DNA of 64,000 bases. Source: Thalassospiraceae bacterium LMO-JJ14. Lineage in GTDB: Bacteria > Pseudomonadota > Alphaproteobacteria > Rhodospirillales > Casp-alpha2. Within the stretch, counting starts at the first letter, position 1. Every line of letters starts with the position of its first letter. The notes below the pieces were generated by a model. That model had not been told where the DNA came from. It did not search any database and was given only the letters and a program-made list of their open reading frames with translations. The position numbers and the translations under genes were made by a program. Below, in pieces: positions 19,495-57,925 of the stretch. The DNA lies in assembly GCA_021555105.2 (NCBI GenBank), contig CP134604.1:1302001-1366000 (forward strand), written 5' to 3'.

Positions 19495-19576
19495 TCTCCC
19501 TAAGTCCTTGGAGAGAAATAACTTCTTTAAATTCATAGCCTTACGCCTCCCCTAGTGGTACAGACAGGGGGTACAT

Positions 19577-21127: not shown

Positions 21128-21479
21128 GTTAGCTACTAATCAAAAACAGATACACAGGGATGGATGAGCCTGAAGATCAATATCTTGTAATGGCGTTGAA
21201 CATTGAGGGTTGGGCTTTGGCCAGTGGTGGTTGGTCTCCTAGAGGGGCGTCTAATTGAATGACTCTCAGGAGCCACCTAGGAGTCGTTGGAGCGGCTGTC
21301 TCTCCTGCTCGACCCCGATGTACCTAATGTTGAGTTGTCGCTCAGTGCGCCTTGTGTAGCCATACAGAGACGGTACCGGATAGCGTCTCTGTATTTCGGC
21401 GATCAAGGTTTAGTGCGTGGCAAACAGCTGCCTAATTTGCCTATGCATTATGCACTACTCAAGGAGTGCATAGGTCAGA
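21128..21479. other. intergenic gap with stem-loops between integrase and ParB-like gene
   Basis: No convincing gene is seen in these 352 bp. They hold an 11-bp perfect inverted repeat (ATACAGAGACG at 21362-21372 and its complement at 21384-21394, 10-nt loop) and an 8-bp inverted repeat (CCTATGCA at 21440-21447 and TGCATAGG at 21467-21474) just past the end of the ParB-like gene. The convergent genes would need terminators here. Neither stem has a good T run, so terminator function is only possible; recombination or protein-binding roles are equally open. Confidence 0.55.
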
Positions 21480-22373: not shown

Positions 22374-22432
22374 TTGCTCTTTAATCTCACTGAAGTTTGA
22401 CGATGGTGAATCGTTAGGAAGGAGTGAGTGGC

Positions 22433-25400
22433 CTACATTTGGGCAGCATTGTAAATGCTTTCTCCGCCACCGGCATAGCTACTGAAGACATGATTGAACG
22501 TGGCACTACACTTGGCATCATAGATGGCCTCATCATATACCTCGGGGAGTCCCTGGTCTAAGACCGCCTTAATAGCCTGTTCCACGGCTCCTCGTGCTTG
22601 AGATTTGTTCCTCCAATCGATGACTAGCTTCTCGGCTTTCAGCGTCTCCAGAAGGGCCTTGCAGACCTTCTTCACTTCGGTGCGTTCCTTGTCGGTCAAC
22701 TCAGGTTCCGGCTTGGTGAGAATATCGAAGACCGCAAGTTCTTCCTCGGTGAGGCCTTCGCGCATGGCTCGTCGATCTTCTTCGCTCAGGTCTTGGGTCA
22801 GCTTGATTAATTCGGCGAAGAATGCCTCGACGTTGAGGCTGGCAGAGTTGTACTTGTCGATCAGCTTCTCGAACCGTTCCAGGAAGTCGGCACGGGAAGG
22901 GTTCAACTTCGCCATCTGGACTAGCTTCTGGTTCAACAGTGCCCGCAGCTTCTCGGCCTCCGTCCGCTTCCGTCCTTTGGCGAACTTCTCCTTTAGTTTG
23001 TCAAAGTCGATCTGGCTCAGGTCGAACAGCTTTTCCTCGTCCATGTCTTCGATGACGTACGGGATCGGAGCGACTGAACGATCCAGCAGGTCTTCCACCT
23101 GGTCCATGATGTGGGAGATGTTCACAGGCGGGGCCAACGACTTGATCTTCTGCGCCAGGACGGAGACCAGAACCGCATCCGTTATCAGTTCCTTTGCCAG
23201 TGGGTCGGGCAGGATCGCCCGGTATACGCGGGAGACAGCCGCCGCCATGCCCAGGTAGGTCCTCTTGTTCTCGTCCGTGTCGATTAACTTCTCGACCGCA
23301 TCGTCCAACAAGGCGATTTTCTCAAAGCCTTGAGCTTCTTTGATAGCTGCCGGGTCGATGCCGCGCTCCACCAGGAAGGCGATAGCTTGGGCGGACAGAA
23401 CCCTCAGGTACTCAATCAATTCTGACTTGTCCTTGATCGGCTGTTCGCCGCCTTCCCCCGTCGCCCCACCGTAGATGGCTAGGGCCTCCTGGAGTTTGCG
23501 AAACACGCCCACATAATCGACGATCAGCCCCGCTTCCTTGCCAGGGTACTTGCGGTTGGCCCGCGCGATGGTCTGCATCAGGGTGTGGTTCTTCATAGGC
23601 TTGTCGAGGTAGATGGTCGAACACGACGGTACGTCGAAGCCCGTGATCCACATAGCGCAGACGAAGACCAGCCGGAGTGGATCGTCCGGGTCTTTGAACT
23701 TCTCATCGATCTCGCCTGAGACCATACGCTTCCGGTGCGGCACGATGTCGAGACCCTTGGCCTTCATCTCAGCTTCTTCGTTCTGACCCTGGGAGACGAC
23801 CACGGCCATGTCCATCTTCTCCATGCGCTTGATGGTGGCCTCAAGGGCTTCACGGCCTTCCTCAGCCACGGTGGGCCGTTGCCCTTTTAGCTTGGCGAGG
23901 TGGGCCTTCCAGTGGGCCTGGACTTTGTCGTACATGCGAACTGCTGTGGCCTTGTCGATGCAGACCATCATCCCCTTGCCCTGGTGCCCCCGTCCTGTGA
24001 AGTGCTGGACCAGGTCCTCGGCGATGGCCTCCAGACGTTCATCACGGGTGATCAGGTGGTACTCACGAGCAAAGACCCGCTGGACCTTGCGCTCCTGATC
24101 GTCATCTAGCGCAGCGTCTTCCAGCAGTTGTTCCAGATCGTCGGAGAGGTTCTCGTTGGTTAGCTGGAGTTCCGGGATGCGGTTCTCGTAGTAGAGCGGC
24201 ACCGTGGCCCCGTCCGCGATGGACTGGCCGAAATCGTAGACTGAGACGTAGTCGCCAAACACCTCCTTAGTCTTCTCTTCTCCGGCGATCAACGGAGTCC
24301 CAGTGAAGCCCAAAAAGGCCGCATTGGGCAGGGCCGAGCGCATGTTGAGGGCCAACGTGTCGTACTGGGAGCGGTGGGCTTCGTCGGTGATCACGATGAT
24401 ATCCCGGCGGTTGGACAGCTGGGGGTAGGTCTCGCCTTGCTTGGTGTTGAACTTGTGGATCAGGGTGAAGACGTAGCGGTGGTCCTCGGTCAGCAGATTC
24501 TTCAAGTGTGCCCCGCTGGTGGCATGGGCTTCTGCTTCGGTGACAGCCCCAGTAGCTGCGAAGGTCTTGTAGATTTGGTCGTCCAGCTCCTCGCGGTCGG
24601 TAACGACAACGAAGGTCCAGTTGCCGGGGACGGTGCGGAGGATCTTCTGGGTGAAGAACACCATGGAGAGCGACTTGCCTGACCCCTGAGTATGCCAGAA
24701 TACGCCCAACCGCCCAGCCTCGTCCTCGGGGCGTTGATTGACTTTGTCCAACTCCAGGATCGCCTTGTTGACGCCCAGATACTGGTGGTTCTTGGCCATC
24801 TTCTTGATCAGGCCGCCCTTGGCTTCCTCAAACACGGTGAAGTTCTCGACGATGTCCAGCAAACGTTCCGGCGTCGTTGCACCCCGGATCAGGGTCTCCA
24901 GCGAGACCACGCCTTTCTCGCCTTCGTCGTTGATACGCTTCCACTCGAAGAAATGTTCCCATTGAGAGGAAGTGCTCCCCATCACGGTCTTGGAGCCGTT
25001 GGACAGAACCAAGAAGCCGTTGAAGGTAAATAATTGCGGAATGGCCGAGCGGTAGTCGGTCAGATTGCCGTCATACGCCGCTTTGAGCGTGTTATGGCTG
25101 GCCTTCAGTTCGATGAACAATAGGGGGATGCCGTTGACAAAGCCGATCAGGTCACAGCGGCGGTTGTAGATGTCGCCCCGCACCCAAAACTGAGAGGCGA
25201 TGAAGAAGTCATTGTTCCCGGCTACCCGCCAATCGATCAGGCGCACCCGCTCGGTCGTCATCCCGCCGCGCTCATCCGGCACATCCACGTTGATGCCGTC
25301 CTTGAGCAGTTTGTAGACCTCCTGATTAGCGTTGACGGGGATCATGGTAGACCGGTCCCGTGTCAGGACCTCAATGGCTTGGTCGAAGGCCGCATTATCC

Positions 25401-25606
25401 AAGGTTGGATTGAGACGAGCCAAGGCAGCCCGAAGGCGCGGCACCAAGACCACATCATAATCACTGCCCCGACCTTCGCTGGAGATGCTGCCCGTCCATT
25501 CGCCGTAGAGGTTCCCCGTCTCCCACCCCAGATCACCGAACAGGCCCAGAGCGGCTTGCTCCAGGGCGTCTTCAGAATAGTCATGGGCAGGAGACGGAGG
25601 GGTCAT
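22433..25606 (-). CDS. hsdR: type I restriction endonuclease subunit R
   Basis: The 1057-residue protein has the HsdR layout. An N-terminal PD-(D/E)XK nuclease (Asp152 in RRCDLIGF, Glu166-x-Lys168 in FIELKAS) is followed by two RecA-like motor domains with Walker A TQGSGKS (about 306-312) and a DEAH box (408-411), then a helical C-terminal region. It translocates DNA with ATP and cuts unmodified DNA when complexed with HsdM and HsdS. The catalytic residues I can see are intact, so the system looks functional. Its start overlaps the hsdS stop by 4 nt. Confidence 0.96.
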   Translation of the reverse strand: MTPPSPAHDYSEDALEQAALGLFGDLGWETGNLYGEWTGSISSEGRGSDYDVVLVPRLRAALARLNPTLDNAAFDQAIEVLTRDRSTMIPVNANQEVYKLLKDGINVDVPDERGGMTTERVRLIDWRVAGNNDFFIASQFWVRGDIYNRRCDLIGFVNGIPLLFIELKASHNTLKAAYDGNLTDYRSAIPQLFTFNGFLVLSNGSKTVMGSTSSQWEHFFEWKRINDEGEKGVVSLETLIRGATTPERLLDIVENFTVFEEAKGGLIKKMAKNHQYLGVNKAILELDKVNQRPEDEAGRLGVFWHTQGSGKSLSMVFFTQKILRTVPGNWTFVVVTDREELDDQIYKTFAATGAVTEAEAHATSGAHLKNLLTEDHRYVFTLIHKFNTKQGETYPQLSNRRDIIVITDEAHRSQYDTLALNMRSALPNAAFLGFTGTPLIAGEEKTKEVFGDYVSVYDFGQSIADGATVPLYYENRIPELQLTNENLSDDLEQLLEDAALDDDQERKVQRVFAREYHLITRDERLEAIAEDLVQHFTGRGHQGKGMMVCIDKATAVRMYDKVQAHWKAHLAKLKGQRPTVAEEGREALEATIKRMEKMDMAVVVSQGQNEEAEMKAKGLDIVPHRKRMVSGEIDEKFKDPDDPLRLVFVCAMWITGFDVPSCSTIYLDKPMKNHTLMQTIARANRKYPGKEAGLIVDYVGVFRKLQEALAIYGGATGEGGEQPIKDKSELIEYLRVLSAQAIAFLVERGIDPAAIKEAQGFEKIALLDDAVEKLIDTDENKRTYLGMAAAVSRVYRAILPDPLAKELITDAVLVSVLAQKIKSLAPPVNISHIMDQVEDLLDRSVAPIPYVIEDMDEEKLFDLSQIDFDKLKEKFAKGRKRTEAEKLRALLNQKLVQMAKLNPSRADFLERFEKLIDKYNSASLNVEAFFAELIKLTQDLSEEDRRAMREGLTEEELAVFDILTKPEPELTDKERTEVKKVCKALLETLKAEKLVIDWRNKSQARGAVEQAIKAVLDQGLPEVYDEAIYDAKCSATFNHVFSSYAGGGESIYNAAQM

Positions 25607-26871
25607 GCGACGACATCCTCAAGGGCAACCTCAGACTCGCTGACGTCGATCTCACCGGCAACCAGCTTGGGCAGCAGGAGGTCGCGTTGGGTGCGAAGGT
25701 TGGTGTTCTTCGAAAGCAGAACCTGTATCTGCCTTTTCATTGGGTCAACCAACTCTCCGAACCTGGATTGTATGGGTTGGCTGGGGTGAAGGACCAACGT
25801 CTCAGACACTCGGGTCTTTGATAGTTCCGTTTGCCCTGTTGCACCTACACCCTGATCTTCGAAATGGGGCTGTAGATGTAACAACTGCTGGCCGTAGAAG
25901 ACCTTGTCCATTGTGTCGTTGGCACGGGCAATTGTGACATGGCTGTCCACTGTCACCTTGTCGAATTGCTCCTGCACCTGTGCTACACGTCCCAGAGTGC
26001 CCACACCTGTGGAGTTGATCAGAAGGTCACCAAATTGAACGTACTTATCTTCAGGTACGTTCTTACTCTGTCGGCGGGATAGGTCCATGTTCAGCCTGTG
26101 ATCGCGGATGCACTTCTGGTTGATAACCCGACACTCAGCGTCATCGTCGTATTTGGGCGAAATGCCACGGCTGATGAAAGCCGAAACCTCACCAAGTTGA
26201 CAATACTTCCACCCTCCCGGCACACGGCCATGTTCGGTTTCGGTGAAGGTGGCGTCCTCATGGCCGGGGAAGCGGAAGTGGACGAACCACTCTTCGTAAA
26301 GCCGTCGGGCCATTTCCTCCAAGATTGTTATCCGCCGCATGTTGTTCTCGATCAGGTCGTCGTATACGGAGAGGATGGAGGCGATGCGGTGCTGGGTTGA
26401 TTGTGGTGGCACGTTGATCTCAAAGGTCCTCATGTCCCTGAGCAGCAAGTTCTTCTGGGCAGTGCCTCCTGCGAAGGCTATGAGACGCTCAACCTCTGCC
26501 AGTAGGTAGTAGTACAGCCAAGTGTTAAAGACCTTCGTATGGTCAGGCTTCACAATTGCCACACTCTTTTGGAACGTGGTTTGGTGAGTTCTATCCGCCT
26601 TCGGCGCGATAGCCATTCGACCAATTGTGCCGCTGTTCGTCACGAGTATGTCGCCAGGTTCCAATTGGGTGCGACGATGGGTATCAAGGAAATCAACCTC
26701 TGTAATTTGCCGCGCCCCTACGTAGTTCAACTTCCCATCGCGGACGTCTTTGCAACTCAAGAAATAGTAACCAGAGGCTTCTTGATTCTCGCAATCACCA
26801 TGTTTGCCGTCAGTGATAAGATGACAGACGTCCTGTAATTTCATTCGAGTGCTGGCGCGGTGATCAGCCAT
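25603..26871 (-). CDS. hsdS: type I restriction-modification specificity subunit
   Basis: The 422-residue protein has two target-recognition domains (about residues 10-165 and 215-370), each followed by a helical conserved region ([21 protein letters not shown] after the first in shortened form), as in HsdS proteins. It sets the bipartite DNA sequence recognised by both methylation and cleavage. The target cannot be predicted from sequence. It overlaps hsdM by 8 nt upstream and hsdR by 4 nt downstream. I found no second or inverted hsdS copy in the island. Confidence 0.92.
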
Positions 26872-28426
26872 CGAGAGCCGCCTCCAACACAGAGACTACG
26901 TTTTCTGCGATCTGGGCTTCCAATTCCCTTGCTTCCGCGTTGAGAATTTCCAGTTCCTCGTTCAGTTCTTCCAAGCGTTCAGTGAAGTCCACGTCCTCGG
27001 CTTCTCGCGCCGCTGCACCAACGTAGCGCCCTGAGTTGAGGGACCAGCCCTGGGCTTCGATCTCCGCCCGTGTGGCGATCTTGCAGAGGCCGGGAACATC
27101 CACGTAGCCATCATTCAGCCCCTTCTCCGCCAGTAGGTTGTCACTACCCTGCTCCAGTTCGACCTCTTGCCCTCGGTAAAGGCGTACGATGTTGGCCAGG
27201 AACTCGATCTGATCGGGTGTGAAATCGCGATGCGCCCGGTCGATCTGGCGGAAGATGTGCCGGGCATCGACGAACAGGACCTTGTCTTCGTTGTCCTTGC
27301 CGACCTTGCCCTTGTCGAAGAACCACAGGGTGCAGGGCAGGGTCACGGTGTAGAAGAAGTTGGGGCCGACGGAGACGATCACGTCCACCGCGCCAGTTTC
27401 GATGATCTTCTGACGGATATCCGCCTCACTGCCCCGTGCATCACCGGCTGAGTTGGCCATGACGAACCCGGCCCGGCCCGTTGCGTTCAGGGCTGCATGG
27501 AACAGGCTAATCCACAGGTAGTTGGCATTGTCTGTTCGGGGTAGCCCATAGGGGAATCGTAGGTCTCCCTCTAGACGCTCTTTATCTACGCCAGAGACGT
27601 TGAACGGCGGGTTGGCCATGATGAAGTCGAACCGGCCACCCAGCTTGTCCACCGCTTCATGAGGGTCTTCGTAGAAGGTGTTGGCCTTGATCACGTTGCC
27701 CGACAACCCGTGGATAGCGAGGTTCATCTTGTTCAGGTTGACGGTGATCTGGTCTTTCTCGGTCCCGAAGATGGAGATTTCCTCCATCGCTGTCTTGTGG
27801 TGGCGTTCCACGAAACCAGCCGAGTGGACGAACATACCACCGGAGCCACAGGCCGGATCGTAGATGCGCCCGTGATACGGCTCGATGATCTCTACGATCA
27901 GTTTCACGATGGCTTCCGGGGTGTAGAAGACGCCGCCTTTCTGGCCCTCGGCCATGGCAAAGTTGCCAAGGAAGTATTCGTAGACCTTACCAAATGCGTC
28001 CCCGGTCAGGTCCACGGGGGCCAGCAGTTTCAGAAGTTCGACCAGAACGTGGTTCTCGATCTGGGTGTAGGTGCGGGGCAGAGCGCCCTTGAGGTCGGTG
28101 TTCTCGTCCTCCACAGCCTTCATGGCATCGTTAATGGCCTTGCCGATGTTGTCGCCTTCGGTGAGGGAGAGGAGATGAGAGAAGCGAGCTTCGGCTGGCA
28201 GGAAGATCACCCCCTCGGCTTCGTAGTCAGCCTTGCTGATCTTGCGACGACCACCGGAACCGACCTGCCCCAGCTTAGCCTCGGCTTCAGCATACTTCTT
28301 CTCAGCATAGCGAAGAAAGATCAGGCCCAGGACAGGGCCGGAGAACTCACTAGGCTTTAAGCCTGTGTTCGCCCATAGCTGATCCGCTGCCGCCCAAAGG
28401 CGTTTCTCGTCGTCACCGTTGACCAA
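26864..28426 (-). CDS. hsdM: type I restriction-modification DNA methyltransferase subunit
   Basis: The 520-residue N6-adenine methyltransferase has the HsdM N-terminal helical domain (about 5-130), the SAM-binding motif DPACGSGGM (190-198) and the catalytic NPPF (272-275). The C-terminal 60 residues form a likely coiled coil ([20 protein letters not shown]) that contacts HsdS. It starts with TTG after GGGGAG. It methylates host DNA at the site defined by HsdS. It is the first of the three overlapping hsd genes, with 77 bp between it and the recombinase gene upstream. Confidence 0.95.
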
Positions 28427-28503
28427 GTTGCTCTCCCCTATGTTTTCTTAATTGGGATGATACCCGCCATAGGCGAGCCATGCCACAGTTCCGGCACTAG
28501 CCC

Positions 28504-29091
28504 CTATGCCGCTGCGCTTTTAACGATGCCGTGCACGGTACCCAATGATACGCCAGCCTGCTTCGCAATACTGCGAAGACTACGTCCTGCTTCTCTGGCA
28601 GTTAGAATTTGGTTTCGGAGGTCATCCGAGAGGGCAGGGCGTCCGAGCTTTATGCCGTTGGCCCTAGCACGATCCAGTCCGGCTTTGACGCGATCTTGGA
28701 TCATGGAACGTTCAAACTCGGCGAATACACCCATCATTTGAAACATCGCCTTCCCTGCGGGTGTTGTTGTGTCGATGCCTTGTTGATGAAGGTAGAGATC
28801 GACATTGGTCGCGTGAAGTTCGCTCAGGAAACCGACGAGGTCTTGAAGTGACCGGCCAAGGCGGTCAACCGACCAGGCCATCGCTACATCGAACTTCCGT
28901 CGCGTGGCATCGTGATAGAGTCGGTTGAAGGCAGGGCGATGATCACGGCCCTTTGAGCCGGATATGCCCTGGTCCTCGTATATCTCTACGATATCCCATC
29001 CGGCACCTTTGGCAGCTTCTTCAAGAACGAGGCGCTGGTTCTCGGTGTTTTGATCATTGGTGGAAACGCGAATGTAAATGGCGGCTTTCAT
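28504..29091 (-). CDS. serine recombinase (resolvase/invertase family)
   Basis: I start at the ATG at 29091 (195 aa), with GAGGAG about 9 nt upstream; an open extension of nine codons has no such site. The catalytic serine lies in YIRVSTNDQNTENQ, followed by the conserved RPAFNRL, WSVDRLGRS and FAEFERSMIQ motifs of small resolvases and invertases, and a C-terminal Hin-type helix-turn-helix (SLRSIAKQAGVSLGTVHGIV). It could resolve cointegrates or invert DNA. No pair of inverted recombination sites was recognised near hsdS. It lies between the 93-aa hypothetical gene and hsdM on the same strand. Confidence 0.92.
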   Translation of the reverse strand: MKAAIYIRVSTNDQNTENQRLVLEEAAKGAGWDIVEIYEDQGISGSKGRDHRPAFNRLYHDATRRKFDVAMAWSVDRLGRSLQDLVGFLSELHATNVDLYLHQQGIDTTTPAGKAMFQMMGVFAEFERSMIQDRVKAGLDRARANGIKLGRPALSDDLRNQILTAREAGRSLRSIAKQAGVSLGTVHGIVKSAAA

Positions 29092-29120
29092 CAAATTGGC
29101 TCCTCGGGCTACATGCATTT

Positions 29121-29402
29121 TTAAAGTGGATTGATCTTGCCCCTACCAGGTTCGCCTCCACCTTTCTTAATTTCAGCCAATGCTTTCATGACTCTATCCA
29201 GATCATCAGTGCCTGATGGATAGGATGGCGATCTGCGCCCTGATACAGCGCCTCCATAAACCATCTGTACCTTGATTACATGGACTGGCTCTTTGCCGCC
29301 CCAATACTCAAGCCCAAAGGATACAAGGTATTCGGTGTCTTCCGGGTGTGGCTTGCTTGCTTTGACGTATATGCATCGAACCGGGTGATAGACTTTTGGC
29401 AT
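29121..29402 (-). CDS. hypothetical protein, 93 aa
   Basis: A soluble 93-residue protein beginning PKVYHPVRCIYVKASKPHPED, with a beta-rich first half and a glycine/lysine-rich tail. I do not recognise it. The ATG follows AGGAGGAGT, a strong ribosome-binding site, so it is likely translated. It ends 29 nt before the recombinase start and is probably co-transcribed with it. A tandem palindromic repeat sits about 50 bp upstream. Confidence 0.65.
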   Translation of the reverse strand: MPKVYHPVRCIYVKASKPHPEDTEYLVSFGLEYWGGKEPVHVIKVQMVYGGAVSGRRSPSYPSGTDDLDRVMKALAEIKKGGGEPGRGKINPL

Positions 29403-29819
29403 CTACTCCTCCTGTATGTGATATGCCTATAAAAGAACCTAACGGAGTCCTATAGGAACCTATAGGAACTTACAAGTTATTATTGTCGTGCATTAAGGCT
29501 CATAGGCTCAATTGGATGGAGAACCGGACAGCCAATACCAACGTTGCGTGGGCGGATCTTGGCCGGGGGCACATAACGCCCAATTCTATATGTTCATTTA
29601 ACAGATGGTTTATGAACGCCACATCAAGGTGTCCTTAGGGCACAGAAATCCTAGGTTTACAGACACGGATTTTGGAGGGGTTTTTTGAACGCCAAGTTGA
29701 ACAAAATCACCTAAACGGCATCAGTCACTTATGCATAGATTTATTTATTACGCCTAGTCCTTGACCAGGCTGGGTAGTCAAAAGACATTGATCCGACGTT
29801 TTTAACCGTGGGGTCATAT
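29403..29819. other. AT-rich divergent intergenic region
   Basis: These 417 bp separate the minus-strand recombinase/hsd transcript from the plus-strand hypothetical gene. No gene is supported. The stretch must hold both promoters. Besides the tandem CCTATAGGAA repeat at 29449-29468 I see only short T-rich and A-rich runs. Confidence 0.5.
29449..29468. repeat. tandem palindromic 10-bp repeat, candidate operator
   Basis: CCTATAGGAA occurs twice head-to-tail with no gap; each unit contains the perfect palindrome CCTATAGG. It lies 47-66 bp upstream of the start of the 93-aa gene, a position suited to a repressor or recombinase binding site at that promoter. Confidence 0.5.
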
Positions 29820-30398
29820 ATGACACAGAGTAATAAGTTTTTATTAGATGCTTTATTAGCTGCTGGTGAGGATAAAAAGCATCCATTTCTCAGTAGGTTA
29901 TTCCAAGAAGCGGAAGATGATTTTGGGGTGTGTAGTGGTGCAGTTAAGGAATTGATGGATGAAAAAAATTGGTCCGTTAAACGGCGTCCGAAGATCATTG
30001 TTGTGGCACGAGAGAATCAATCAGGTAACCTGACAGTGAGGTGGTACCCACTTAAATCAGTAAATCAGCCAACTAGATATAAATCTCAGATTTCGATTGA
30101 AAAATTATCGGAGCTTGAATTCGAAGAGTCATATCTAGGGCAGTGTGAAGGTACAGAGATGACGGGGGGCATGCCGTATCGTCCGCTGAATGAAATAATG
30201 TGGTTTCGTCAATTTAGAGATTTATGCCGATCTCGCAATGAAGTGAAGTCTGAAATCACAGCCTCACTTTTGCATGCTGTTGAAGCCCGATATTTAGAAT
30301 TGTTGGATAGCATCGGTAAAAAACTGGTGATCAAACAGGCTTCAGAATTTGTGCCTATCTATAAAAACGGGTGGGTCTCTGATTTGGAACTGCATTAG
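29820..30398 (+). CDS. AT-rich hypothetical protein, about 192 aa
   Basis: The ATG at 29820 follows a GTGGGG stretch; a GTG at 29808 in the same frame is an alternative start. The protein is soluble and mixed alpha/beta, with an N-terminal helix pair (NKFLLDALLAAGEDKKHPFL) and no motif I recognise. Base and codon use are much more AT-rich than the core genes, which fits horizontal transfer. It stops at 30398, but another frame stays open across and beyond this point, so the gene may be frameshifted at its 3' end. Confidence 0.6.
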   Translation: MTQSNKFLLDALLAAGEDKKHPFLSRLFQEAEDDFGVCSGAVKELMDEKNWSVKRRPKIIVVARENQSGNLTVRWYPLKSVNQPTRYKSQISIEKLSELEFEESYLGQCEGTEMTGGMPYRPLNEIMWFRQFRDLCRSRNEVKSEITASLLHAVEARYLELLDSIGKKLVIKQASEFVPIYKNGWVSDLELH

Positions 30399-30607
30399 AA
30401 TGTAGGTTTAATGACACTCCAGCGCCTCATAAGAAGAATGAACCCCAAAGCTTAATAATTGCAGCTTGTGCCGTTGATGCGCCGGGGGCACGGGGGGATC
30501 GTGCCTTGGAATATTTATTGATACCCCAACAGAAATTCCTATCAAAACTTAATCGGTTTTATCCGGGTACCCTTCCAAGTGTGTGCCCAAAAGAACTTCG
30601 AAAGTAG
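30383..30607 (+). pseudogene. open frame continuing past the hypothetical gene, possible frameshifted tail
   Basis: From 30383 to the TAG at 30605-30607 the frame one base off the preceding gene is open for 74 codons. It has no good start codon, yet its translation looks protein-like (for example IIAACAVDAPGARGDRALEY and KFLSKLNRFYPGTLPSVCP). The simplest reading is the true C-terminus of the preceding gene, separated from it by a frameshift near 30383-30395. A sequencing error or a programmed shift are alternatives. The remaining bases to 30740 hold no feature I can support. Confidence 0.35.
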
Positions 30608-30740
30608 CTTCTTAGAAAGTTGCAAATGCTACGTCTTTGTATGGCCTAAACCCTGCTATCGATAAGGATGGAGGAGGATATAGCTGAGTCATCTCGATAG
30701 TTAAATCAGACGCAAGTCTTCAAAATTATATAGCGTAACT

Positions 30741-32042
30741 TTATTCGTCCGATTCTTGGCGTTGTTGCATATAGCGGTCAATCCATCGTGACAGCCGTCC
30801 GGTATTATTCTCTGCTGCAATTGAGCGGCCATCGGGCAAGATCACGCATAAGCATTCGACAGTAGTGAGTTCTAATTCTTTTCCTTTCCGTGCAACCAAG
30901 CGTGTTTCGATTAAGGTGTTGATAAATTCGTCAGCAGTTAGCCCAGAACCTGAGACGAAGGATAAGAAGTCCTTCTTGCTCGTGTCGACCGTTTCGCCTT
31001 GGCATAGAAGGTTGATAACAACGAACTGCTCTTTCGTAAGCTCGTTGGGTTCCCAGTTGGTTGCCACAGGCGCATTTTCCAACGCTTTCTTGCTGATGGT
31101 CTCGGAAGTACATATCCAACCGTATTGCTCCGGATTTTCTGGGTGCTCAGCCAGCCTCGTCCAAAGAAGCGGCGAAAACCCCTCCATTTGAAGGTCTTCG
31201 CCAAACAGTTCAGGCATTGGCTGGATATATGATAAGCGTGTCCAGATCAGCTCTAACATAAGGAGCAGGGGGTTGGAGCTAGAACTCGCCAGTAGGAGCA
31301 TATTGTCGCCGTTCATTGGGGATCGGTAGGGATGGCCGGTGAATTTTACGAGGCTGGCGCCCCCCGCCACAATTAGTTGTGGAAAGGCGTGCGGACCATA
31401 TCCTGTTTTCAGAAGCTTATCCTCGAGGAATTTCAGGAACCCCTTGCGCAACCCGTATTCACTGCTGAAACCACCGTATCCAAATGCAATGCGCACCGGT
31501 GAAAATTGGTCACCTACAACGGTATGAAAGATATGTTCGATCTCAGGCGGTAATTCACTTAGCCTTTCATAGGAAGGCGCGATAATGCCCGTAATTTCGC
31601 TAAAGGCGCGGCGTGAAGGTAGCATGTTGACGGAATTACCGCCTTTGACCTTCTGTATCCAGCGTGAATGGGTTTCTAGGACCTCGCGAAGCTGATGATA
31701 CGCTTCATCGAGACTTTTGGAGAACAGGTTCTTCTTGACCTCGATAACGGCGATAACGTCCTTAATGTGCCATTTGAATTTATCAGTGTATGGCACAGGC
31801 GTTCCTTTGCCACGGACGAGCATGCAATCGATCTGATTGCTGAGTTCACCTTCGTCGTCTTCGGCAAAACCTGATACGACTTGGAGTCCTAAGCCCGGTG
31901 GGATCGTACGCTCAAGAATGTCGGTTGTTAAACCTTCATACATTTCACCGATGGTTGGAGCATGACGGATACCCGCTTGTTCAAGCGTTATGGCTTCCTT
32001 TTCTGCAAAGGAGCGCAATAGGTTCGCGACGTCATGAATCAT
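30741..32042 (-). CDS. DUF6602-type protein with PD-(D/E)XK-like motif
   Basis: The 433-residue protein has an N-terminal domain (about 20-200) that looks like a restriction-type nuclease fold. GEMYEG (32-37) supplies a helix glutamate, QIDCMLV gives Asp72, and VIAVIEVKKNL gives Glu101-x-Lys103. The DUF6602 label is from memory of that pattern. The C-terminal half (about 250-430) contains what may be a winged-helix segment (TKEQFVVINLLCQGE). The start has a good AGGTG site. DNA cleavage is a plausible role, but whether it defends the host or processes island DNA is unknown. It is alone on its strand at the right end of the island. Confidence 0.6.
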   Translation of the reverse strand: MIHDVANLLRSFAEKEAITLEQAGIRHAPTIGEMYEGLTTDILERTIPPGLGLQVVSGFAEDDEGELSNQIDCMLVRGKGTPVPYTDKFKWHIKDVIAVIEVKKNLFSKSLDEAYHQLREVLETHSRWIQKVKGGNSVNMLPSRRAFSEITGIIAPSYERLSELPPEIEHIFHTVVGDQFSPVRIAFGYGGFSSEYGLRKGFLKFLEDKLLKTGYGPHAFPQLIVAGGASLVKFTGHPYRSPMNGDNMLLLASSSSNPLLLMLELIWTRLSYIQPMPELFGEDLQMEGFSPLLWTRLAEHPENPEQYGWICTSETISKKALENAPVATNWEPNELTKEQFVVINLLCQGETVDTSKKDFLSFVSGSGLTADEFINTLIETRLVARKGKELELTTVECLCVILPDGRSIAAENNTGRLSRWIDRYMQQRQESDE

Positions 32043-50697: not shown

Positions 50698-53600
50698 TTA
50701 TTTGATCGAGATATTGAGCGGGTTGCAGAACGTGTCGCCGAAGCGCGCGCGCAGTTCGATGCAGGCGTTCTCGGCGGCGTCGCGGCTCGGGAACGGCAGC
50801 GCATAAAGATCGACATACCTGGCGCGGTTGTCCTGCGCCGGTGTCTCCGGGAACTCGGCGGTGACGTCCTGGAAAATCTCGGGCAGCGCCGATCTGATCT
50901 CGTCCCAAGCCTTGCGGGCTTCATCGGCGCTCGCAAACGATGCCAGAAGCACGCGGGCTTCAAGCTTGCCTTCGGCGGCTTCGCCGATGACGAAGTCCTC
51001 GCCATTTAGAATGGTACCGTCCTGGCCAATTATTATATTGCGTGGCTCGACGTCCGGCAGTTGCAGGCGCGCAAGCTGTTCGGGGTCTATCCTGAGCTGA
51101 TAAGTCCCCGGACGGATGAATTCGAGGAGATAGAAGCCGTCGTACTGTGAGCGGACTTCCTGAGCGATATCACCGTTGCTGTCGACAAGCTGAACAATGA
51201 CATCGGATACAGGTTTCGACCATTTGCCGTCACGGCGGTAAATCACACCATCGATTTCGCCGGTCGTGACGACGGCAAAATCCACATGACCCGGGACGCC
51301 TGGCCGCAAGGTCACTTCGACACCTTCAGGAGTCGGGATCCAATAAGGGTCTTCGAGAGTTCCTTTGTCGATCTCGAAGTTGACCGGCTCAAACGTGTCG
51401 AGCGAGGTAATGAACGCAATGCCGTCGGCATTCGTTTGTTGTTTCAGCTTGGTGCGGCCGGAAGCAAAGCTGACGCCTTCAAGCGGTTCGTCGACACCTT
51501 CTGTAAAGGTGCCGTTGCCGTCCAGATCCCTAAACACGCGGGCTGTCATGGTGCCGCGCTCGGCAGTGGCCTTCGATGCCACGCGCAGGCCGCCGTCAGC
51601 GGCGTCCTTGCCCCATGAGTAAGAAAGCTTGAGCTTGGCCGAATAATTACCGCCGGTGTCATATGTGCCTTCGAGGCCTGCAGCGACGATCTCGAAGTCG
51701 GAGTTGACGCCTGCCGTATAGGACGTCAGTCCGGAATCGGTCAGTTCCTTGGAGATGCCGGCGCGTGCATTAAGGCTCGAATTCAGTTTCCAGTCTCCCG
51801 ACAGGGCAACGGTGGTCAAAGCTGGTTCGGGCATGGCGTCGTATGCAAGCTGGCCACGGGTCCGAAGGTTGCCGATGGAGCCGCCGACCTGGAAGGTACC
51901 CGCAGCGGTTTTCGTATCCTCGCTTTCGGCAGGATCGGTGAGCGTCAGATTGAGTGTATTGGAAATCGATGCCCGCCCGATGGCCGTGGATAAGCGGTTT
52001 TGCAGGGTTGTCGTCTTGTCGCGGGACTTGAAGTTCTCATGAGTGACATTCAGGGCATAGGGAATATGCGGTAAAAGATCAGAGCGGATTACGCCGTCTA
52101 TTCTGAGCCGGGTTTCAGATTCCAGCGGATCGGTTTCGTTGTCGTATTCTTCGCTCAGGAAATCGTTCAGAATCGTGTGTTCTGCGAACACGCTAACGCC
52201 GAACAACTGGGTCTGTCCCGATAGCGTTCCGGCCCAGCCGCCCTTAATATCCTTGGTCAGGTCCGTACGGAGATAGACCGGCCCCAGCGATGTTACGACA
52301 TTGCCACCCGTGTACATTTTGTGGCCGCCTTCGAACGGGATGCTGGCAAAGTTTGTGCCGACGGACAGGTTTTTGTTGATGCCGTACTTGTACTGCGCCG
52401 CGTAACGGGATTTCCCCTGGAATCCGTCGCTGTTGTTGTCTTCGTCGTCGCCCATGAGCGTGAGACGGTTTTGCTGGTTGTACGACACATTGTAGGTGTG
52501 TGAACCGGGTTTGATCTGGTCCGGGCCGACGCGGATCTGCTGTATTTCCTCACGTTGCTGGCCTTGCGGGCCATAAAATACCAGCTTGATGACGTTGACG
52601 CCGAACAGCAGCGGCACATCCTCGAACAGATACCGGCCGTCGTCCTGGGATTCACGGAAATCGAGAAGAATTTCGTTTCGGTACAGTTCGACTTCCCAGC
52701 CAAGCTGCAGATCGCCTTGCAGGGTGATGCGGTCGAATTCCGTTTCGTCGCCGATCGGGGTGTTGGAAATGCTGAAGCCGCGGCCGAGCTTGGTGCGGGT
52801 CATGTGCGCGATTTGAGGGCCGTAAATGTCGCCGACAGCAAACTTGGTCGCATCGAGTTTTCCAAGCAGACCGCCATCCACATCCTGGCGGCCCAATTTA
52901 ATGCGCGCGACCTTGAGCCGGTCGTCCTGAGTGCCGGACAGGAAAACATCTGCATTGAGTTTGACCAGATCCGCGGTCGCCAGGGTTGTGTAGTTCCTGC
53001 TGAGCGTTGGACCTTCGTCACTGGAACTCACGGTAAAATCAAGCGTTGTGTCGGATACCGGCCAGGTGATCCATTTGTAAGGGACCTCAAGCTTGTCGTA
53101 TGTGCGGCCCTTACCGCCACGCTGTCCGAAAATCCTCTTGCGCCGTTGTTCTCGTTGCAGCCGGGCTTCGATCGGCAACGGTTCACGGGATTCGATATTC
53201 AAGATCAGGTTCGGGATATCGTACTCGATATCGATCGGGAACCATGTCGACAGGGTGCGGACATCGACATAGATGTCGTCGGGCAACTGTTCGACGAAAG
53301 CGGGATCGACGGGGCGGACCTCCCCGGCGATCACGACTTTGCTGGCTGCGAGATCAAGCGAAAACAACCTGTTCTCGTCAAGGAACCAGCCCTGTGCACG
53401 TCCGTTTTCAGCGTCAACAGTGATGGGAAACTCCAACGCTTCAACGACGTCAGTTAACGGCAGGATAAGACTACCCTGCTTGGGGAAACCGAAAATTGCA
53501 TCGCGCAGAATGATCTTTCCAAGAGTCATCTGCAGGATCAGCAATTCCTCGTCACTGCGTTCGGCAGTTTTGAAAGGGGTTTCGGCTTCGGGGACCTGCG

Positions 53601-53868
53601 CAACGTATGAAGAAACATCCAGGGTGGACGAATACTTCACCGTTTTTGCAAGGCCGGGAGCGGGCGCAAAAAGAATGGCCGCAATGAAAATCATTGCAAC
53701 CAGCACAACAGGTCCGGAGACAAGTCTATCCAGTCGTAATGCGGATATGAGCAAACGTCCCGCCGAAGGCAGGGCAAGTGCTGTCTCTGTCGTGTGCCGC
53801 CGGCACGGTGTAACCACCGCGCCGGAATGCGGCACGTTTACTTTTTGCAACCTCAAACGAACTCCCAT
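50698..53868 (-). CDS. usher-like outer-membrane protein with C-terminal SPOR-like domain
   Basis: The protein has about 1056 residues if the ATG at 53868 is used; the frame is open to 53997, and a TTG nearer the signal peptide is possible, so the start is uncertain. A signal-like segment (VVLVAMIFIAAILFAPAPG) is followed by an N-terminal domain (LTDVVEALEFPITVDAENG), a long alternating beta region (about 270-770) typical of a barrel, two Cna-B/carboxypeptidase-regulatory-like modules (VFRDLDGNGTFTEG; GFYLLEFIRPGTYQLRI) and a C-terminal SPOR-like domain (about 966-1056, YVDLYALPFPSRDAAENAC). It is probably the secretion pore for the DUF4402 subunits. Family assignment is by architecture and neighbours; a peptidoglycan-binding SPOR tail is unusual for an usher. 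Confidence 0.65.
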   Translation of the reverse strand: MGVRLRLQKVNVPHSGAVVTPCRRHTTETALALPSAGRLLISALRLDRLVSGPVVLVAMIFIAAILFAPAPGLAKTVKYSSTLDVSSYVAQVPEAETPFKTAERSDEELLILQMTLGKIILRDAIFGFPKQGSLILPLTDVVEALEFPITVDAENGRAQGWFLDENRLFSLDLAASKVVIAGEVRPVDPAFVEQLPDDIYVDVRTLSTWFPIDIEYDIPNLILNIESREPLPIEARLQREQRRKRIFGQRGGKGRTYDKLEVPYKWITWPVSDTTLDFTVSSSDEGPTLSRNYTTLATADLVKLNADVFLSGTQDDRLKVARIKLGRQDVDGGLLGKLDATKFAVGDIYGPQIAHMTRTKLGRGFSISNTPIGDETEFDRITLQGDLQLGWEVELYRNEILLDFRESQDDGRYLFEDVPLLFGVNVIKLVFYGPQGQQREEIQQIRVGPDQIKPGSHTYNVSYNQQNRLTLMGDDEDNNSDGFQGKSRYAAQYKYGINKNLSVGTNFASIPFEGGHKMYTGGNVVTSLGPVYLRTDLTKDIKGGWAGTLSGQTQLFGVSVFAEHTILNDFLSEEYDNETDPLESETRLRIDGVIRSDLLPHIPYALNVTHENFKSRDKTTTLQNRLSTAIGRASISNTLNLTLTDPAESEDTKTAAGTFQVGGSIGNLRTRGQLAYDAMPEPALTTVALSGDWKLNSSLNARAGISKELTDSGLTSYTAGVNSDFEIVAAGLEGTYDTGGNYSAKLKLSYSWGKDAADGGLRVASKATAERGTMTARVFRDLDGNGTFTEGVDEPLEGVSFASGRTKLKQQTNADGIAFITSLDTFEPVNFEIDKGTLEDPYWIPTPEGVEVTLRPGVPGHVDFAVVTTGEIDGVIYRRDGKWSKPVSDVIVQLVDSNGDIAQEVRSQYDGFYLLEFIRPGTYQLRIDPEQLARLQLPDVEPRNIIIGQDGTILNGEDFVIGEAAEGKLEARVLLASFASADEARKAWDEIRSALPEIFQDVTAEFPETPAQDNRARYVDLYALPFPSRDAAENACIELRARFGDTFCNPLNISIK

Positions 53869-54220
53869 CATGTTCGTTGACTGAGTAATGCACATCAACG
53901 TGCCACCCGCCGCCACCGGGAGGTCGACACGGGCCCCGAAGGGCGCGTCTCCCGTACACAGGCATTTGCAAGTGCCTGCGCGGCAAAAGGATGACAAAGC
54001 TAGTTTGCGGCGAGTTTGGTTAAGGCCGGCTTAAGGGCTTTTGGGGGTGTTGTCAGGTTTCTGTAAGGTTTTGAAAAACTTCACTTTTTTAGAATCTGTC
54101 ATGTTTGTGTCAGTAATCATCGTTAGAAAGGCGATACATATTGAGGGATGGGGCCGCTAGGCCCTTTAGTTATGTCATTTTTGCCCCGGCAATCCGGGTA
54201 TGAGTAAAGGAAACTGTGAA
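53869..54220. other. divergent leader region between usher and DUF4402 genes
   Basis: This gap holds both promoters of the fibre locus. The usher side has two stem-loops (listed separately). The plus side has a GGGCC-GCTA-GGCCC hairpin near 54150 and CCCGG-CAAT-CCGGG near 54185, ending just before the AAAGGAAA site of the subunit gene. Such stable hairpins near the ribosome-binding site may tune subunit translation. I could not match any known riboswitch. Confidence 0.45.
53917..53978 (-). promoter_or_regulatory. structured 5' leader of usher-like gene
   Basis: On the minus strand two stem-loops precede the likely start. One is CAGGCA/TGCCTG (53959-53978). The other is nested: outer CGGGAG/CTCCCG (53917-53922 with 53949-53954) around a TTCG-capped GCCC/GGGC stem. 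The folding potential argues that the longest open frame is not all coding. Confidence 0.45.
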
Positions 54221-54718
54221 ATGAAGATCAGAAAAATTCTTGCAGTGGCTGCCTTGGTTGCCATGTTCGCCGCACCTGCTTCCGTCAAAGCCGCAAGCGA
54301 TACCGCCAGCGCATCGGCAACGATTGCCGCCGCCGTGACGGTCACCAAGGTCAGCGACCTTGAATTCGGCCTTATCTCCCCGACGGGGACGGCGGGTACC
54401 GTGACCATCTCCGACGCCGGTGCACGCACGGGCGATGCCAACGTCGTTCTGCAGTCCGGCACCACGCCGTCGCAGGCCTCGTTCAACGTCAGCGGTTCCG
54501 CCAGCCAGGCGATCACCGTGACGATCCCGTCGACCGCCGTTCTGACCGGTTCCGGGACCGATATGACCGCCACCCTGAGCCAGACCGAAGCCGGTTCGCA
54601 GACCCTTGACGGTAGCGGTGCATTCACCGTTGACGTCGGCGCAACGCTTGCCGTTGGTGCGAACCAGGGTGCAGGCGCATACTCCGGCAGCTTCGATGTG
54701 ACGGTTGTCTACAACTGA
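54221..54718 (+). CDS. DUF4402-type exported subunit (candidate major pilin)
   Basis: I start at the ATG at 54221 (165 aa), which follows AAAGGAAA; an in-frame ATG seven codons earlier is weaker. A signal peptide (KILAVAALVAMFAAPASVKA) is followed by a small beta-rich domain. It has the DUF4402 pattern: a DLEFGLISP segment, a central FNVSGSASQAITVTIPS and the ending ATLAVGANQGAGAYSG...VVYN. The terminal Tyr-Asn fits subunits handled by a donor-strand system. A strong terminator follows closely, so this gene can be expressed alone at high level, as expected for a major fibre subunit. Confidence 0.88.
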   Translation: MKIRKILAVAALVAMFAAPASVKAASDTASASATIAAAVTVTKVSDLEFGLISPTGTAGTVTISDAGARTGDANVVLQSGTTPSQASFNVSGSASQAITVTIPSTAVLTGSGTDMTATLSQTEAGSQTLDGSGAFTVDVGATLAVGANQGAGAYSGSFDVTVVYN

Positions 54719-54755
54719 TTTTGCCCAACCCGGGGATTATCCGTTAAAAAGCTTT

Positions 54756-54791
54756 AAAAGCCGCCGGAGAAATTATGCTCCGGCGGCTTTT
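54756..54791 (+). terminator. Rho-independent terminator after DUF4402 subunit gene
   Basis: A stem AAAAGCCGCCGGAG/CTCCGGCGGCTTTT with an 8-nt loop provides a very stable hairpin with flanking A and T runs, so it may work in both directions. Confidence 0.93.
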
Positions 54792-54908
54792 CGATTCTGT
54801 GTTAACCTCTTGTTCGGAAAAAGTTAATACGTTCAGATCAATGCGGTTTTTATTGGCCCGAATCACGATTTCATGTATTGTCGCGTTGAACAGAATGAAG
54901 GTGGTGCG

Positions 54909-55580
54909 TTGAAAAAGACGCCAATAGGTATAGTCAGCACCCTGTGTGCGCTCGGTTTGGTGGGCGGGATCGTCAGTCTTGATGCAACGTCCCTGCAGGC
55001 GGGGCCGACGCGCGATACAGCGACTATTTCGGTCACCATCCAGGCCGCCGCCAGCCTTGGCGTGACAAGAGTAACTCCGGTCACGACAGCAAAATCCGGG
55101 GGTATCCCGTCCATACCGGTCAGCACCACGTCCAATGTCGGCTACGACTCGTCGGCGTCCACGACTGCGGATGCAGGCACGGCTGCATCCACGGGTACAT
55201 CGGCAACACCGGATCAGGCGGCCCGCACTTTTGCCGCGAACGGTGCATCGCCGATTTCGATCGGGCCCAGTGCCGCTGTTGCCGTTGCGGGTGCGCCAAA
55301 TCAGACATTCAATGTAATTTTGCCGGGCAAGACATCCTTTGCCAGCGGCGGGAACGTCGTCAAGCTCAGCGGGTTTCAGCATAGCGCCGGCGCCACACCT
55401 GCGCTCGGCAGCGATGGGTCCGGTACGTTCAGCATCGGTGCCGCAGTAGACACCGCACCGGTGGCTGCCGGGGTCGCAGCCGGTGCAGGTGGCGGTATAG
55501 GAAACGGGCAACAGACGGTTCTGGCGGCAGCGTTTACTCAGAGTTCTCCTTTTGTAAATATCGTCGTTTCCTATAACTGA
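54909..55580 (+). CDS. second DUF4402-like exported subunit with Ala/Ser/Thr-rich insert
   Basis: The start is a TTG at 54909 after GAAGGTGG, giving 223 residues and a signal peptide (PIGIVSTLCALGLVGGIVSL); an ATG at 54873 is in frame but would add a non-signal extension. The mature part resembles the first subunit at its ends (ISVTIQAAASLGVTRVTP; terminal NIVVSYN). It has a central low-complexity stretch of about 60 residues rich in Ala, Ser, Thr and Gly. Both proteins end in Y-N. It is probably a minor or tip-associated subunit, which is inference. Confidence 0.75.
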   Translation: MKKTPIGIVSTLCALGLVGGIVSLDATSLQAGPTRDTATISVTIQAAASLGVTRVTPVTTAKSGGIPSIPVSTTSNVGYDSSASTTADAGTAASTGTSATPDQAARTFAANGASPISIGPSAAVAVAGAPNQTFNVILPGKTSFASGGNVVKLSGFQHSAGATPALGSDGSGTFSIGAAVDTAPVAAGVAAGAGGGIGNGQQTVLAAAFTQSSPFVNIVVSYN

Positions 55581-55635
55581 GGCTGCCGCATTTTCTGCGG
55601 ACAATCATCCATCATGAGAAAAGGGGCCATAGCCA

Positions 55636-56523
55636 ATGTCGCGAGAAAGAAATAGCGCCCGTTCGGTGCCGACACGCGCGATCCCCACGTTTTTACTGGG
55701 CGTGCTGACGGCTGCGCTTACCGCATCCGTTTCGTTCGGGCCGCTTACCGCACAGGCACAAGGCGCCGGAGACCTGGTTGTGTCGCCGACGCGTGTTGTC
55801 CTCGAGGGCCGGACGCGTTCCGCCCAACTGGGTCTGGTCAATAAAGGCTCGGGAACCGCGACATACCGTATTTCCGTCATTAACATGCATATGGGCGAGA
55901 ACGGGAGCATGACCGAAGTCGCGAAACCGGTTGACGGTCAACAGTTTGCCGACAAACTTTTTCGCTATTCACCGCGTCAGGTGACGCTAGAGCCCGGCGC
56001 TTCGCAGGCAATCCGGCTACTGCTGCGCAAGCCCAAGGACCTGCCGGATGGTGAATACCGTTCACATATCATGATGCGCGCCGTGCCTGATGCTGCGGGA
56101 CAAAGCGTCGAGAGCACCGGCGACGGCGCTACGGTGCGATTGATTCCGGTATTCGGAATCGCTGTGCCGATTATCGTCCGGCACGGCAATGTCGAATACG
56201 ACATGTCGCTGAGCGATATCTCGTTCGTGCCGGCAACGGAGCAGAATCCACTGCCGAAAATCCGTTTCAATCTGAACCGAACCGGTAATCGTTCTTCATA
56301 CGGGGATCTGACGGCAACATTGATGGCTGGAGGCAAGGAAGTGGTCTTGTCTGAAATTTTCCGCCTTGCCGTATATACCCCGAATGCCAGCCGAACCGTT
56401 GAAATGTCGTTACGGGTGCCGGATGGGGTCAAGCTTTCCGGGAACACCATCAAGGTTACGTATAAGACGACTTCGGACGAGGGCGCGAAATTGCTCGCAG
56501 AAGGCTCGACCGTCCTTCCCTGA
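55636..56523 (+). CDS. PapD-like periplasmic pilus chaperone
   Basis: The 295-residue protein has a signal peptide (about 1-42, cleaved after AQA) and two immunoglobulin-like domains. The first begins DLVVSPTRVVLEGRTRSAQLGLVNKG and has SPRQVTLEPGASQAIRLLLRKP, as in pilus chaperones. The second domain ends at 294. A basic residue (RTRSAQ region) fits the cleft that anchors subunit C-termini. It should bind DUF4402 subunits in the periplasm and pass them to the usher-like protein. It follows the second subunit gene by 55 nt and is likely co-transcribed with it. Confidence 0.85.
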   Translation: MSRERNSARSVPTRAIPTFLLGVLTAALTASVSFGPLTAQAQGAGDLVVSPTRVVLEGRTRSAQLGLVNKGSGTATYRISVINMHMGENGSMTEVAKPVDGQQFADKLFRYSPRQVTLEPGASQAIRLLLRKPKDLPDGEYRSHIMMRAVPDAAGQSVESTGDGATVRLIPVFGIAVPIIVRHGNVEYDMSLSDISFVPATEQNPLPKIRFNLNRTGNRSSYGDLTATLMAGGKEVVLSEIFRLAVYTPNASRTVEMSLRVPDGVKLSGNTIKVTYKTTSDEGAKLLAEGSTVLP

Positions 56524-56551
56524 GGGGCTTGAGGCGGCCTGTTCCGGATCC

Positions 56552-57058
56552 TTACAAATATTCGACGATATACGTGAAGGTATTTTCGTCGTTGTAATTG
56601 CCTTTTGTCTGATCGGTTGAGATGTGCAGCGTCGCGCCGATGTTGATCGTCTTTTTACCGTCTTTTGAAAGCTTGACCGGGTTTGTCTTATCCATCGTGA
56701 AATTGTCGATCGTCATGTAATTGTTCGACGTGCCCTTGCGGATCGTTATCGATGATGGCAGCGAGACAATCACATACGCTTTGGGTTCGCCGACGATCTG
56801 AAACCGTGCGCGTTTAACTGTGCCACCGAAATTGGTGATCGCGCCGGACCAGGACACACTGTCCGCATCCGGGCTTAATACGACGGTGCCGCCGCCATCG
56901 ATAGAAGCGGCAAATTCACCGAATTTCATATTGCGTTTGGGGACAAGCGTGATGGCGACCTGGGTTGTCGCAGGGCCGGGTGCGAAAACACAAAAGGCGA
57001 CCGCAAGGCAAGCGGCACGTATCCAGGAGCGTTTTTTCCCCAATGATTTCGTCAGCAT
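56552..57058 (-). CDS. third DUF4402-like exported protein, 168 aa
   Basis: The signal peptide (IRAACLAVAFCVFAPGPATT) is followed by a DUF4402-like domain: MKFGEFAASIDGGGTVVLSP, SLPSSITIRKG, INIGATLHIS and a final FTYIVEYL. It is transcribed opposite to the chaperone operon, 28 nt away, so it has its own promoter. It differs in sequence from the other two subunits. It may be an alternative or adaptor subunit of the same fibre. Confidence 0.8.
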   Translation of the reverse strand: MLTKSLGKKRSWIRAACLAVAFCVFAPGPATTQVAITLVPKRNMKFGEFAASIDGGGTVVLSPDADSVSWSGAITNFGGTVKRARFQIVGEPKAYVIVSLPSSITIRKGTSNNYMTIDNFTMDKTNPVKLSKDGKKTINIGATLHISTDQTKGNYNDENTFTYIVEYL

Positions 57059-57175: not shown

Positions 57176-57925
57176 TCAGAAGCCTTCGGCGACCGAGGTC
57201 AAGCCGTCTTCGTCGAGGATTTCGATCTTGCGATCCCGGTCTCCACCGATCAGCCCGTCCTTGCGTAATCTGGAAAAGGTCCGGCTCACGGTTTCCGTCG
57301 TCAGGCCGAGGAAGTCGCCGATGTCGTCCCGGCTCATGGGGACGTCCACGGGATTTGCGCTCACGCCACGTTCACCGGCACGCCGCGCCAGCATCAAAAG
57401 AAATGTGGCGACCCGTTCGTGTGCGGTTTTGCGGCCGAGCAACAGGAGTTGTCCCTGAACTTCGGCAAGAGCCTCGGAGGCCATATCATGCAGGCGTCTT
57501 TCGAGATTTGGAATGGACCCGGCAAGCTTTTCCAGTTCACGGCGTTCCATACGGCACACGTTTGCCTGTGTAACGGCCTCGACACTGCTCGGGTTGGTTT
57601 CGGATCGGGCAAGGCCCAGGAAATCACCGGGGAACAGGAAGCCGATAATCTGGCGGCGGCCATCCGGCAGGAGCTTGAAACATTTAAGGCATCCGTTCGT
57701 CACTGAGAAGACATGCGTTTCAGGTTCGCCTTCGTCCACCAGATGATCGCCGGGCTGGAGAATGACATTCTTCATGACGCCGCCGAAACGCGAAAGCTCG
57801 GCCGGAGCCAGTGCGCCGCATACCGCGTGTTCGCGGACCTGACATGCCGCACACGGGGTTTCCGCGGCTTCTCCACGCGGGATTGCCGGTTTCAGGGCAG
57901 GGCTTTTTTGCGGCGAGCCGGACAT
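57176..57925 (-). CDS. fnrL: FNR-type oxygen-sensing regulator (Crp/Fnr family)
   Basis: The 249-residue protein has Cys25, Cys28 and Cys36 (C-x2-C-x7-C) and Cys124 in ANVCRME, the four ligands of an oxygen-labile 4Fe-4S cluster. A cNMP-like beta-roll follows, then a Crp-type HTH with DFLGLTTETVSRTFSRL. The E..SR residues fit recognition of TTGAT half-sites. It should activate or repress genes under low oxygen. A perfect TTGAT-N4-ATCAA lies at 59010, upstream of the stress-protein gene. The neighbouring fibre locus may also be a target, which is inference. Confidence 0.93.
   Translation of the reverse strand: MSGSPQKSPALKPAIPRGEAAETPCAACQVREHAVCGALAPAELSRFGGVMKNVILQPGDHLVDEGEPETHVFSVTNGCLKCFKLLPDGRRQIIGFLFPGDFLGLARSETNPSSVEAVTQANVCRMERRELEKLAGSIPNLERRLHDMASEALAEVQGQLLLLGRKTAHERVATFLLMLARRAGERGVSANPVDVPMSRDDIGDFLGLTTETVSRTFSRLRKDGLIGGDRDRKIEILDEDGLTSVAEGF

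Follow-up and report, generated by a model that had tools for sequence, protein, structure and literature searches.

A chaperone-usher-like locus with DUF4402 subunits in Thalassospiraceae bacterium LMO-JJ14

Gene content and conservation of the locus

We have analyzed five adjacent genes at positions 50698-57058 of a 64,000-nucleotide stretch of the genome of Thalassospiraceae bacterium LMO-JJ14 (CP134604.1). This stretch is called the window, and coordinates are positions in it unless another locus is named. In the list of open reading frames (ORFs) the group consists of a gene for a large usher-like protein on the minus strand, two DUF4402-type genes (S1 and S2) and a PapD-like chaperone gene on the plus strand, and a third DUF4402-type gene (S3) on the minus strand, as a first-pass annotation of the window had read it. 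The locus very probably encodes a non-classical chaperone-usher system that builds a surface fibre of DUF4402 subunits. Its features are listed in Table 1.

Table 1. Features of the locus, by position in the window
Feature	Position	Strand	Basis
Usher-like outer-membrane assembly platform	50698..53997	-	ORF of 1099 amino acids; conserved protein from ~53694, 998 amino acids; fold and profile evidence
SPOR domain at usher C-terminus, putative peptidoglycan tether	50740..50952	-	residues 915-985; PF05036, 24.7 bits (cut-off 21)
Usher C-terminal immunoglobulin (Ig)/prealbumin-like domains	50980..51528	-	residues ~723-905; SdrD_B / CarboxypepD_reg matches
Usher barrel region, about 22-24 long strands	51529..53088	-	residues ~203-722; AlphaFold model; VIA-align to FimD
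Plug-like domain inside barrel	52501..52845	-	residues ~284-398; conserved ELYRNEVLL...DGRYxFEDVPLLFGVN...FYGPQGQ
Usher N-terminal periplasmic domain	53185..53553	-	residues ~48-170 of the 998-amino-acid form; secondary structure of the model
S1, DUF4402 subunit, likely major; signal peptide, pilin-like core	54200..54718	+	PF14352, 1.1e-28; predicted local distance difference test score (pLDDT) of model 95.6; pilin matches
S1 N-terminal extension	~54293-54328	+	
GC-rich 14-base-pair hairpin between S1 and S2	54756..54791	.	-28.6 kcal/mol, predicted
S2, divergent DUF4402-type subunit; N-terminal extension, low-complexity insert, penultimate Tyr	54873..55580	+	sub-threshold match and relatives
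PapD-like periplasmic chaperone, non-classical type	55636..56523	+	PF00345; hhalign to archaic chaperones, 97.3%; residue columns
S3, DUF4402 subunit lacking an N-terminal extension; candidate tip	56552..57058	-	PF14352, 8.9e-25; most relatives have ~10-15 residues before core

The usher ORF opens with a TTG at 53997, a doubtful start; signal peptide and conserved sequence begin near 53694. All three small secreted proteins had been assigned to DUF4402. This is clear for S1 and S3, but the PF14352 match of S2 lies below threshold (18.6 bits, E 0.0064) and its placement in the family draws on its relatives as well. Elsewhere in the genome no PF14352 match was found, and the genome search gave no match to the Pfam usher family PF00577. 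The hairpin after S1 is a possible terminator or attenuator that would set subunit ratios and leave S1 the most abundant; hairpins 3' of S1 are frequent in relatives, yet they also occur 3' of chaperone genes and were not used as evidence. A scan for sigma-70 promoters found none, although the sigma-70 consensus may not suit an alphaproteobacterium.

The same families were expected to occur together in other genomes, and they do. Among 60 related genomes 15 match the large protein (some partially), and S1, S2, S3 and the chaperone adjoin it where the contig allows, either in the divergent layout of the window or as a single operon S1-S3-S2-chaperone-usher. From a scan of 84,980 species, one genome each, 80 loci were kept. 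These come from Rhodospirillales, Kiloniellales, Sphingomonadales, Gammaproteobacteria, Desulfobacterota and Acidobacteriota, with further loci in bins labelled Zixibacteria, Eisenbacteria and Nitrospinaceae, labels that may be wrong. A chaperone gene is present in 76 of the 80 and DUF4402-type genes in 69, all exceptions being at contig ends. Across the phylum (398 genomes) the usher is found in 10 of 11 genomes with DUF4402 genes and 384 genomes have neither (Fisher p 1.3e-16, an optimistic value because the species are related). In 72,556 plasmid records the usher and the chaperone occur in the same 7. One genome (G311) has two DUF4402 genes and no recognisable usher of the DUF4402-linked family. 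In RefSeq the usher is named 'carboxypeptidase regulatory-like domain-containing protein', the subunits 'DUF4402 domain-containing protein' and the chaperone 'fimbria/pilus periplasmic chaperone', 'molecular chaperone' or 'hypothetical protein'.

Fold and homology of the usher-like protein

The large protein had been taken for an usher-type pore, and it models as one, a barrel with a plug and N- and C-terminal domains. The AlphaFold model was built from 11 sequences (pLDDT 70, predicted template modelling score (pTM) 0.46), and its long strands run from residue 213 to residue 722. In a Foldseek search of the PDB its ranks 1-18 were all FimD or PapC chains (E 7e-24 to 9e-10); an SdrD domain came next (1e-8), with other barrels at about 1e-5. 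VIA-align matched the model to FimD with Z 17.8 over 472 residues (root mean square deviation 4.8), and the best non-usher reached Z 14.1. Some FimD/PapC alignments, of low quality, start at usher residues 47-48, and in relatives the N-terminal domain is Cu_amine_oxidN1-like. The boundaries of the plug-like domain are approximate because pLDDT is low there.

None of 25 diverse ushers (the window protein and 24 relatives) matches PF00577, whereas three archaic ushers used as a positive control match it at 1e-33 to 1e-36; the window protein has diverged too far for the Pfam usher model to detect it. The same 25 gave no match to PF15976 (CooC_C) or PF16967 (TcfC). Profile comparison with hhalign bridged the gap through archaic (sigma) ushers alone, the profile of which was drawn from ushers located beside SCPU genes (99.0%, E 2.7e-18, 679 columns). 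Neither classical FimD-type ushers nor EcpC could be aligned (EcpC 3.8%), and PDB sequence searches with usher, chaperone and subunits gave no usher or pilin match at significant E. By fold and profile, strand count aside, the protein has the usher architecture of the superfamily, a plugged barrel flanked by periplasmic domains at both termini.

The absence of an usher Pfam match, together with SdrD_B and SPOR domains that are unusual in ushers, would also suit some other outer-membrane transporter (LptD-, TonB- or autotransporter-like) that lies beside genes for secreted proteins by chance. This is highly improbable, since fold search and profile comparison both pick ushers, the negative controls fail (reversed sequences 0.2%; LptD, BamA and FhuA 0.1% or less) and the gene linkage is kept across phyla. 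A TonB- or LptD-like transporter was rejected.

A C-terminal SPOR domain ends the ushers of the window, of a Kiloniellales bin (L045), of two Desulfobacterota loci (L066 and L073) and of a Vibrio (L108). In its place the usher of L047 (7680-11096) ends in a ShlB-type POTRA domain and that of L067 (2482-6012) in TPR. The C-terminus of the FimD/PapC usher faces the periplasm, which makes tethering to the cell wall by a SPOR domain plausible; the SPOR domain of the window usher probably holds the platform to peptidoglycan. In the open-access literature searched, papers that pair chaperone-usher systems with a SPOR domain look unrelated, although an earlier description elsewhere is possible. Pseudoalteromonas xiamenensis (L170) carries stand-alone SPOR-domain genes (3410-3895 and 8712-9350) on either side of a DUF4402/chaperone/usher operon, with a TPR gene behind.

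Subunits, chaperone and proposed assembly

The structure predicted for S1 resembles pilins: of its 50 best structural rows, 49 name chaperone-usher pilins (the PapG pilin domain, FimG, CsuA/B, PapA, FimA, CfaB; Z up to 7.6), and many of these alignments begin only at model residue 12-14, where the N-terminal extension ends. Since a structural Z under 8 alone may reflect a common arrangement, weight was placed on the near-exclusive pilin identity of the rows; the Foldseek E-values are likewise weak, but nearly all rows name pilins. The DUF4402 subunits also align by hhalign with SCPU subunits (96.7%, 142 columns). None of 37 subunits matches PF05229 (SCPU) and 35 match PF14352.

The C-termini are VVYN in S1, VSYN in S2 and VEYL in S3, which bears out the Tyr-Asn and Tyr-Leu endings noted earlier. 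These had been read as serving donor-strand exchange. Such exchange is probably the working mode, but the penultimate Tyr belongs to the final strand of the subunit, the one that contacts the chaperone; the donor strand is the N-terminal extension of S1 and S2. A penultimate Tyr occurs in 129 of 184 related subunits vs 0.8% of 832 unrelated ORFs. Of the 184 subunits, 104 have Gly at -14, and together with the penultimate Tyr this is reminiscent of the C-terminal motif that classical pilins carry.

S1 and S2 have a donor-strand-like N-terminal extension and S3 does not. S1-type proteins mostly have about 22-30 residues between the predicted cleavage site and the 'LxFG' core, with the alternating pattern TGTASATIxxPI, and S3-type proteins mostly about 5-16; a locus often has one such short member. 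The superfamily has Ig-like subunits with an N-terminal donor extension and at least one, the tip, without it or with another N-terminal domain; the S1 model, its pilin matches and the extension lengths agree with this. S1 is probably the major subunit. S3 is probably the tip, because a subunit without an extension can only go first. In the nearest relative (L035, 3107-5136; same as L017) three S3-type subunits stand in tandem; all lack the extension and are possibly alternative tip subunits. Four Geothrix loci (L085-L087 and L091) encode, after the usher, a second and larger (330-365 amino acids) two-domain-looking protein with DUF4402 at its end, which could be a candidate tip adhesin.

The chaperone just clears the PapD_N (PF00345) cut-off (3.5e-5). 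By hhalign both of its domains align with archaic chaperones, and mainly the first with classical ones (90.6%). Pro113, the sole invariant chaperone residue of the superfamily (PMC4654587), is kept in all 24 chaperones examined from DUF4402 loci, in agreement with a two-domain PapD-like chaperone. The classical Arg8/Lys112 anchor pair is absent: an Arg8 equivalent is present in 21 of 24, that of Lys112 in none, its column being Pro in 24/24 and likewise in 8/8 archaic chaperones. Arg61, Arg114, Arg131, Gly139, Arg142, His144 and Arg215 are invariant in, and typical of, the DUF4402-linked chaperones; Glu140 is invariant as well, and most of these chaperones have Val or Ile in the column of Csu Tyr196. 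The subunit C-terminus is held in archaic and alternative chaperones by Arg89, Tyr196 and Arg174 (PMC4654587). Arg142 and His144 fall in the Arg89 region, where the alignment register is uncertain, and either may take the Arg89-type anchoring part.

These components suggest the following scheme. Signal peptides would take the subunits into the periplasm, where the chaperone would lend a strand of its own to complete each unfinished Ig-like subunit and pass it on to the usher, the plugged barrel in the outer membrane. There the extension at the N-terminus of each arriving subunit would displace the chaperone strand in the preceding one, and the chain would be threaded out. S3 would enter first and become the tip, with S1 and S2 after it, and the resulting fibre may serve in adhesion. 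In the window member the C-terminal SPOR domain would fix the platform to peptidoglycan. Of this scheme, the computations show the fold and homology of the usher, the pilin fold of S1, the homology of the chaperone, which subunits have the extension and the linkage of the genes; polymerisation, the order of the subunits, adhesion and tethering are inferences.

Several points weigh against this interpretation. The fibre and the subunit complexes are deduced from genes and single-protein models; confidence in the usher model is middling, its strand number and closure being unproven; the S1 matches are weak (Foldseek E 0.025, Z at most 7.6); the cleavage sites behind the extension lengths come from a simple rule and some are misplaced. 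Moreover, Lys112 is missing and Csu Tyr196 is replaced, and therefore the C-terminal anchor must differ. The locus might also make no pilus and instead secrete and display single or short capsule-like DUF4402 proteins, comparable to thin Caf1-type capsules or short polyadhesins. In keeping with this, the window locus has small subunits only and no obvious large adhesin, and L058, L061, L062 and the S. indica plasmid have one recognised subunit with chaperone and usher. Further subunits may, however, escape the profiles, and the extensions of S1 and S2 with the several subunit types in most loci point to ordered polymers. We regard such display as rather unlikely and prefer a polymerised DUF4402 fibre.

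Next to S3 lies a gene for a Crp/Fnr-type regulator (57176-57925; closest models FnrL/FixK), which is kept at the locus in the same-genus genome L017; it possibly places the pilus under redox control, or is a mere neighbour. Farther away, positions 19416-32042 hold tRNA-Phe followed by a phage-type integrase gene (19577-21127; DUF6538 and Phage_integrase), the HsdR gene of a type I restriction system (22433-25606) and a gene for a DUF6602 protein (30741-32042), with G+C down to 0.47; this segment looks like a tRNA-inserted defence island.

Place among the chaperone-usher families

Chaperone-usher systems are divided into a classical, an alternative and an archaic family (PMC4654587). In a tree of 42 ushers, a branch with support 100 separates 25 DUF4402 ushers from those of all three; the tree is unrooted, was made by a quick method and has long branches, which were flagged (stem 1.94 changes per column). 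The first-pass annotation spoke of a distinct fibre-assembly system. The lineage is indeed distinct, but it did not arise wholly on its own: because the profiles show archaic (sigma) homology, 'distinct lineage of the chaperone-usher pathway' is the better term.

The likeness to the archaic family (sigma, Csu/SCPU) extends to the usher, both chaperone domains, the subunit profile and the Pro at the Lys112 column. As the best profile matches of all three components are archaic, the locus could be a drifted member of that family. We consider this unlikely. Archaic ushers match PF00577 and those of the DUF4402 system do not; archaic subunits belong to PF05229 and these to PF14352; the columns of the Arg89/Tyr196 anchor appear to differ, with an uncertain register around Arg89; and the ushers fall on separate sides of the unrooted tree. 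In addition, DUF4402 ushers have a C-terminal SdrD_B-type domain, to which SPOR, TPR or POTRA is often added. The system is nearest the archaic family, but usher and subunit families differ, probably with the anchor residues, and we therefore treat it as a fourth, archaic-like lineage. On balance we favour the broader proposal of a fourth major chaperone-usher family that extends across several phyla. Its pilins would be DUF4402 proteins, its chaperone would use a subunit anchor of its own (no Lys112 and no Tyr196; invariant Arg61, Arg114, Glu140, Arg142 and His144), and many of its ushers would be attached to the cell wall through SPOR or other C-terminal domains.

If this is true, the pili of many unstudied, mostly environmental bacteria have gone uncounted under 'carboxypeptidase regulatory-like' and 'DUF4402' names. 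No paper in the open-access literature searched names DUF4402 or PF14352, although an earlier description elsewhere is possible; the locus offers a likely function for this uncharacterised domain and a case with which to compare the evolution of other ushers and chaperones. A peptidoglycan-binding usher, if real, would be a new means to anchor or position a pilus.

With the classical systems (FimD/PapC, FimC/PapD) the DUF4402 system shares the usher fold, the pilin fold, the Arg8 equivalent and the penultimate Tyr, but it lacks Lys112 and matches to PF00577, PapC_C and PF00419, and its usher and subunit profiles barely match the classical ones. The alternative systems (CS1/ECP) are similar in that EcpC also falls outside PF00577 and has a weak C-terminal CarboxypepD_reg match, and in that strand F1 of their chaperones has an arginine in the corresponding region. 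They differ in that EcpC contains the CooC_C/TcfC domains absent from the DUF4402 ushers, and its profile match to them is poor. By the features compared, the DUF4402 system belongs to neither the classical nor the alternative family, and its nearest relatives are the archaic systems.

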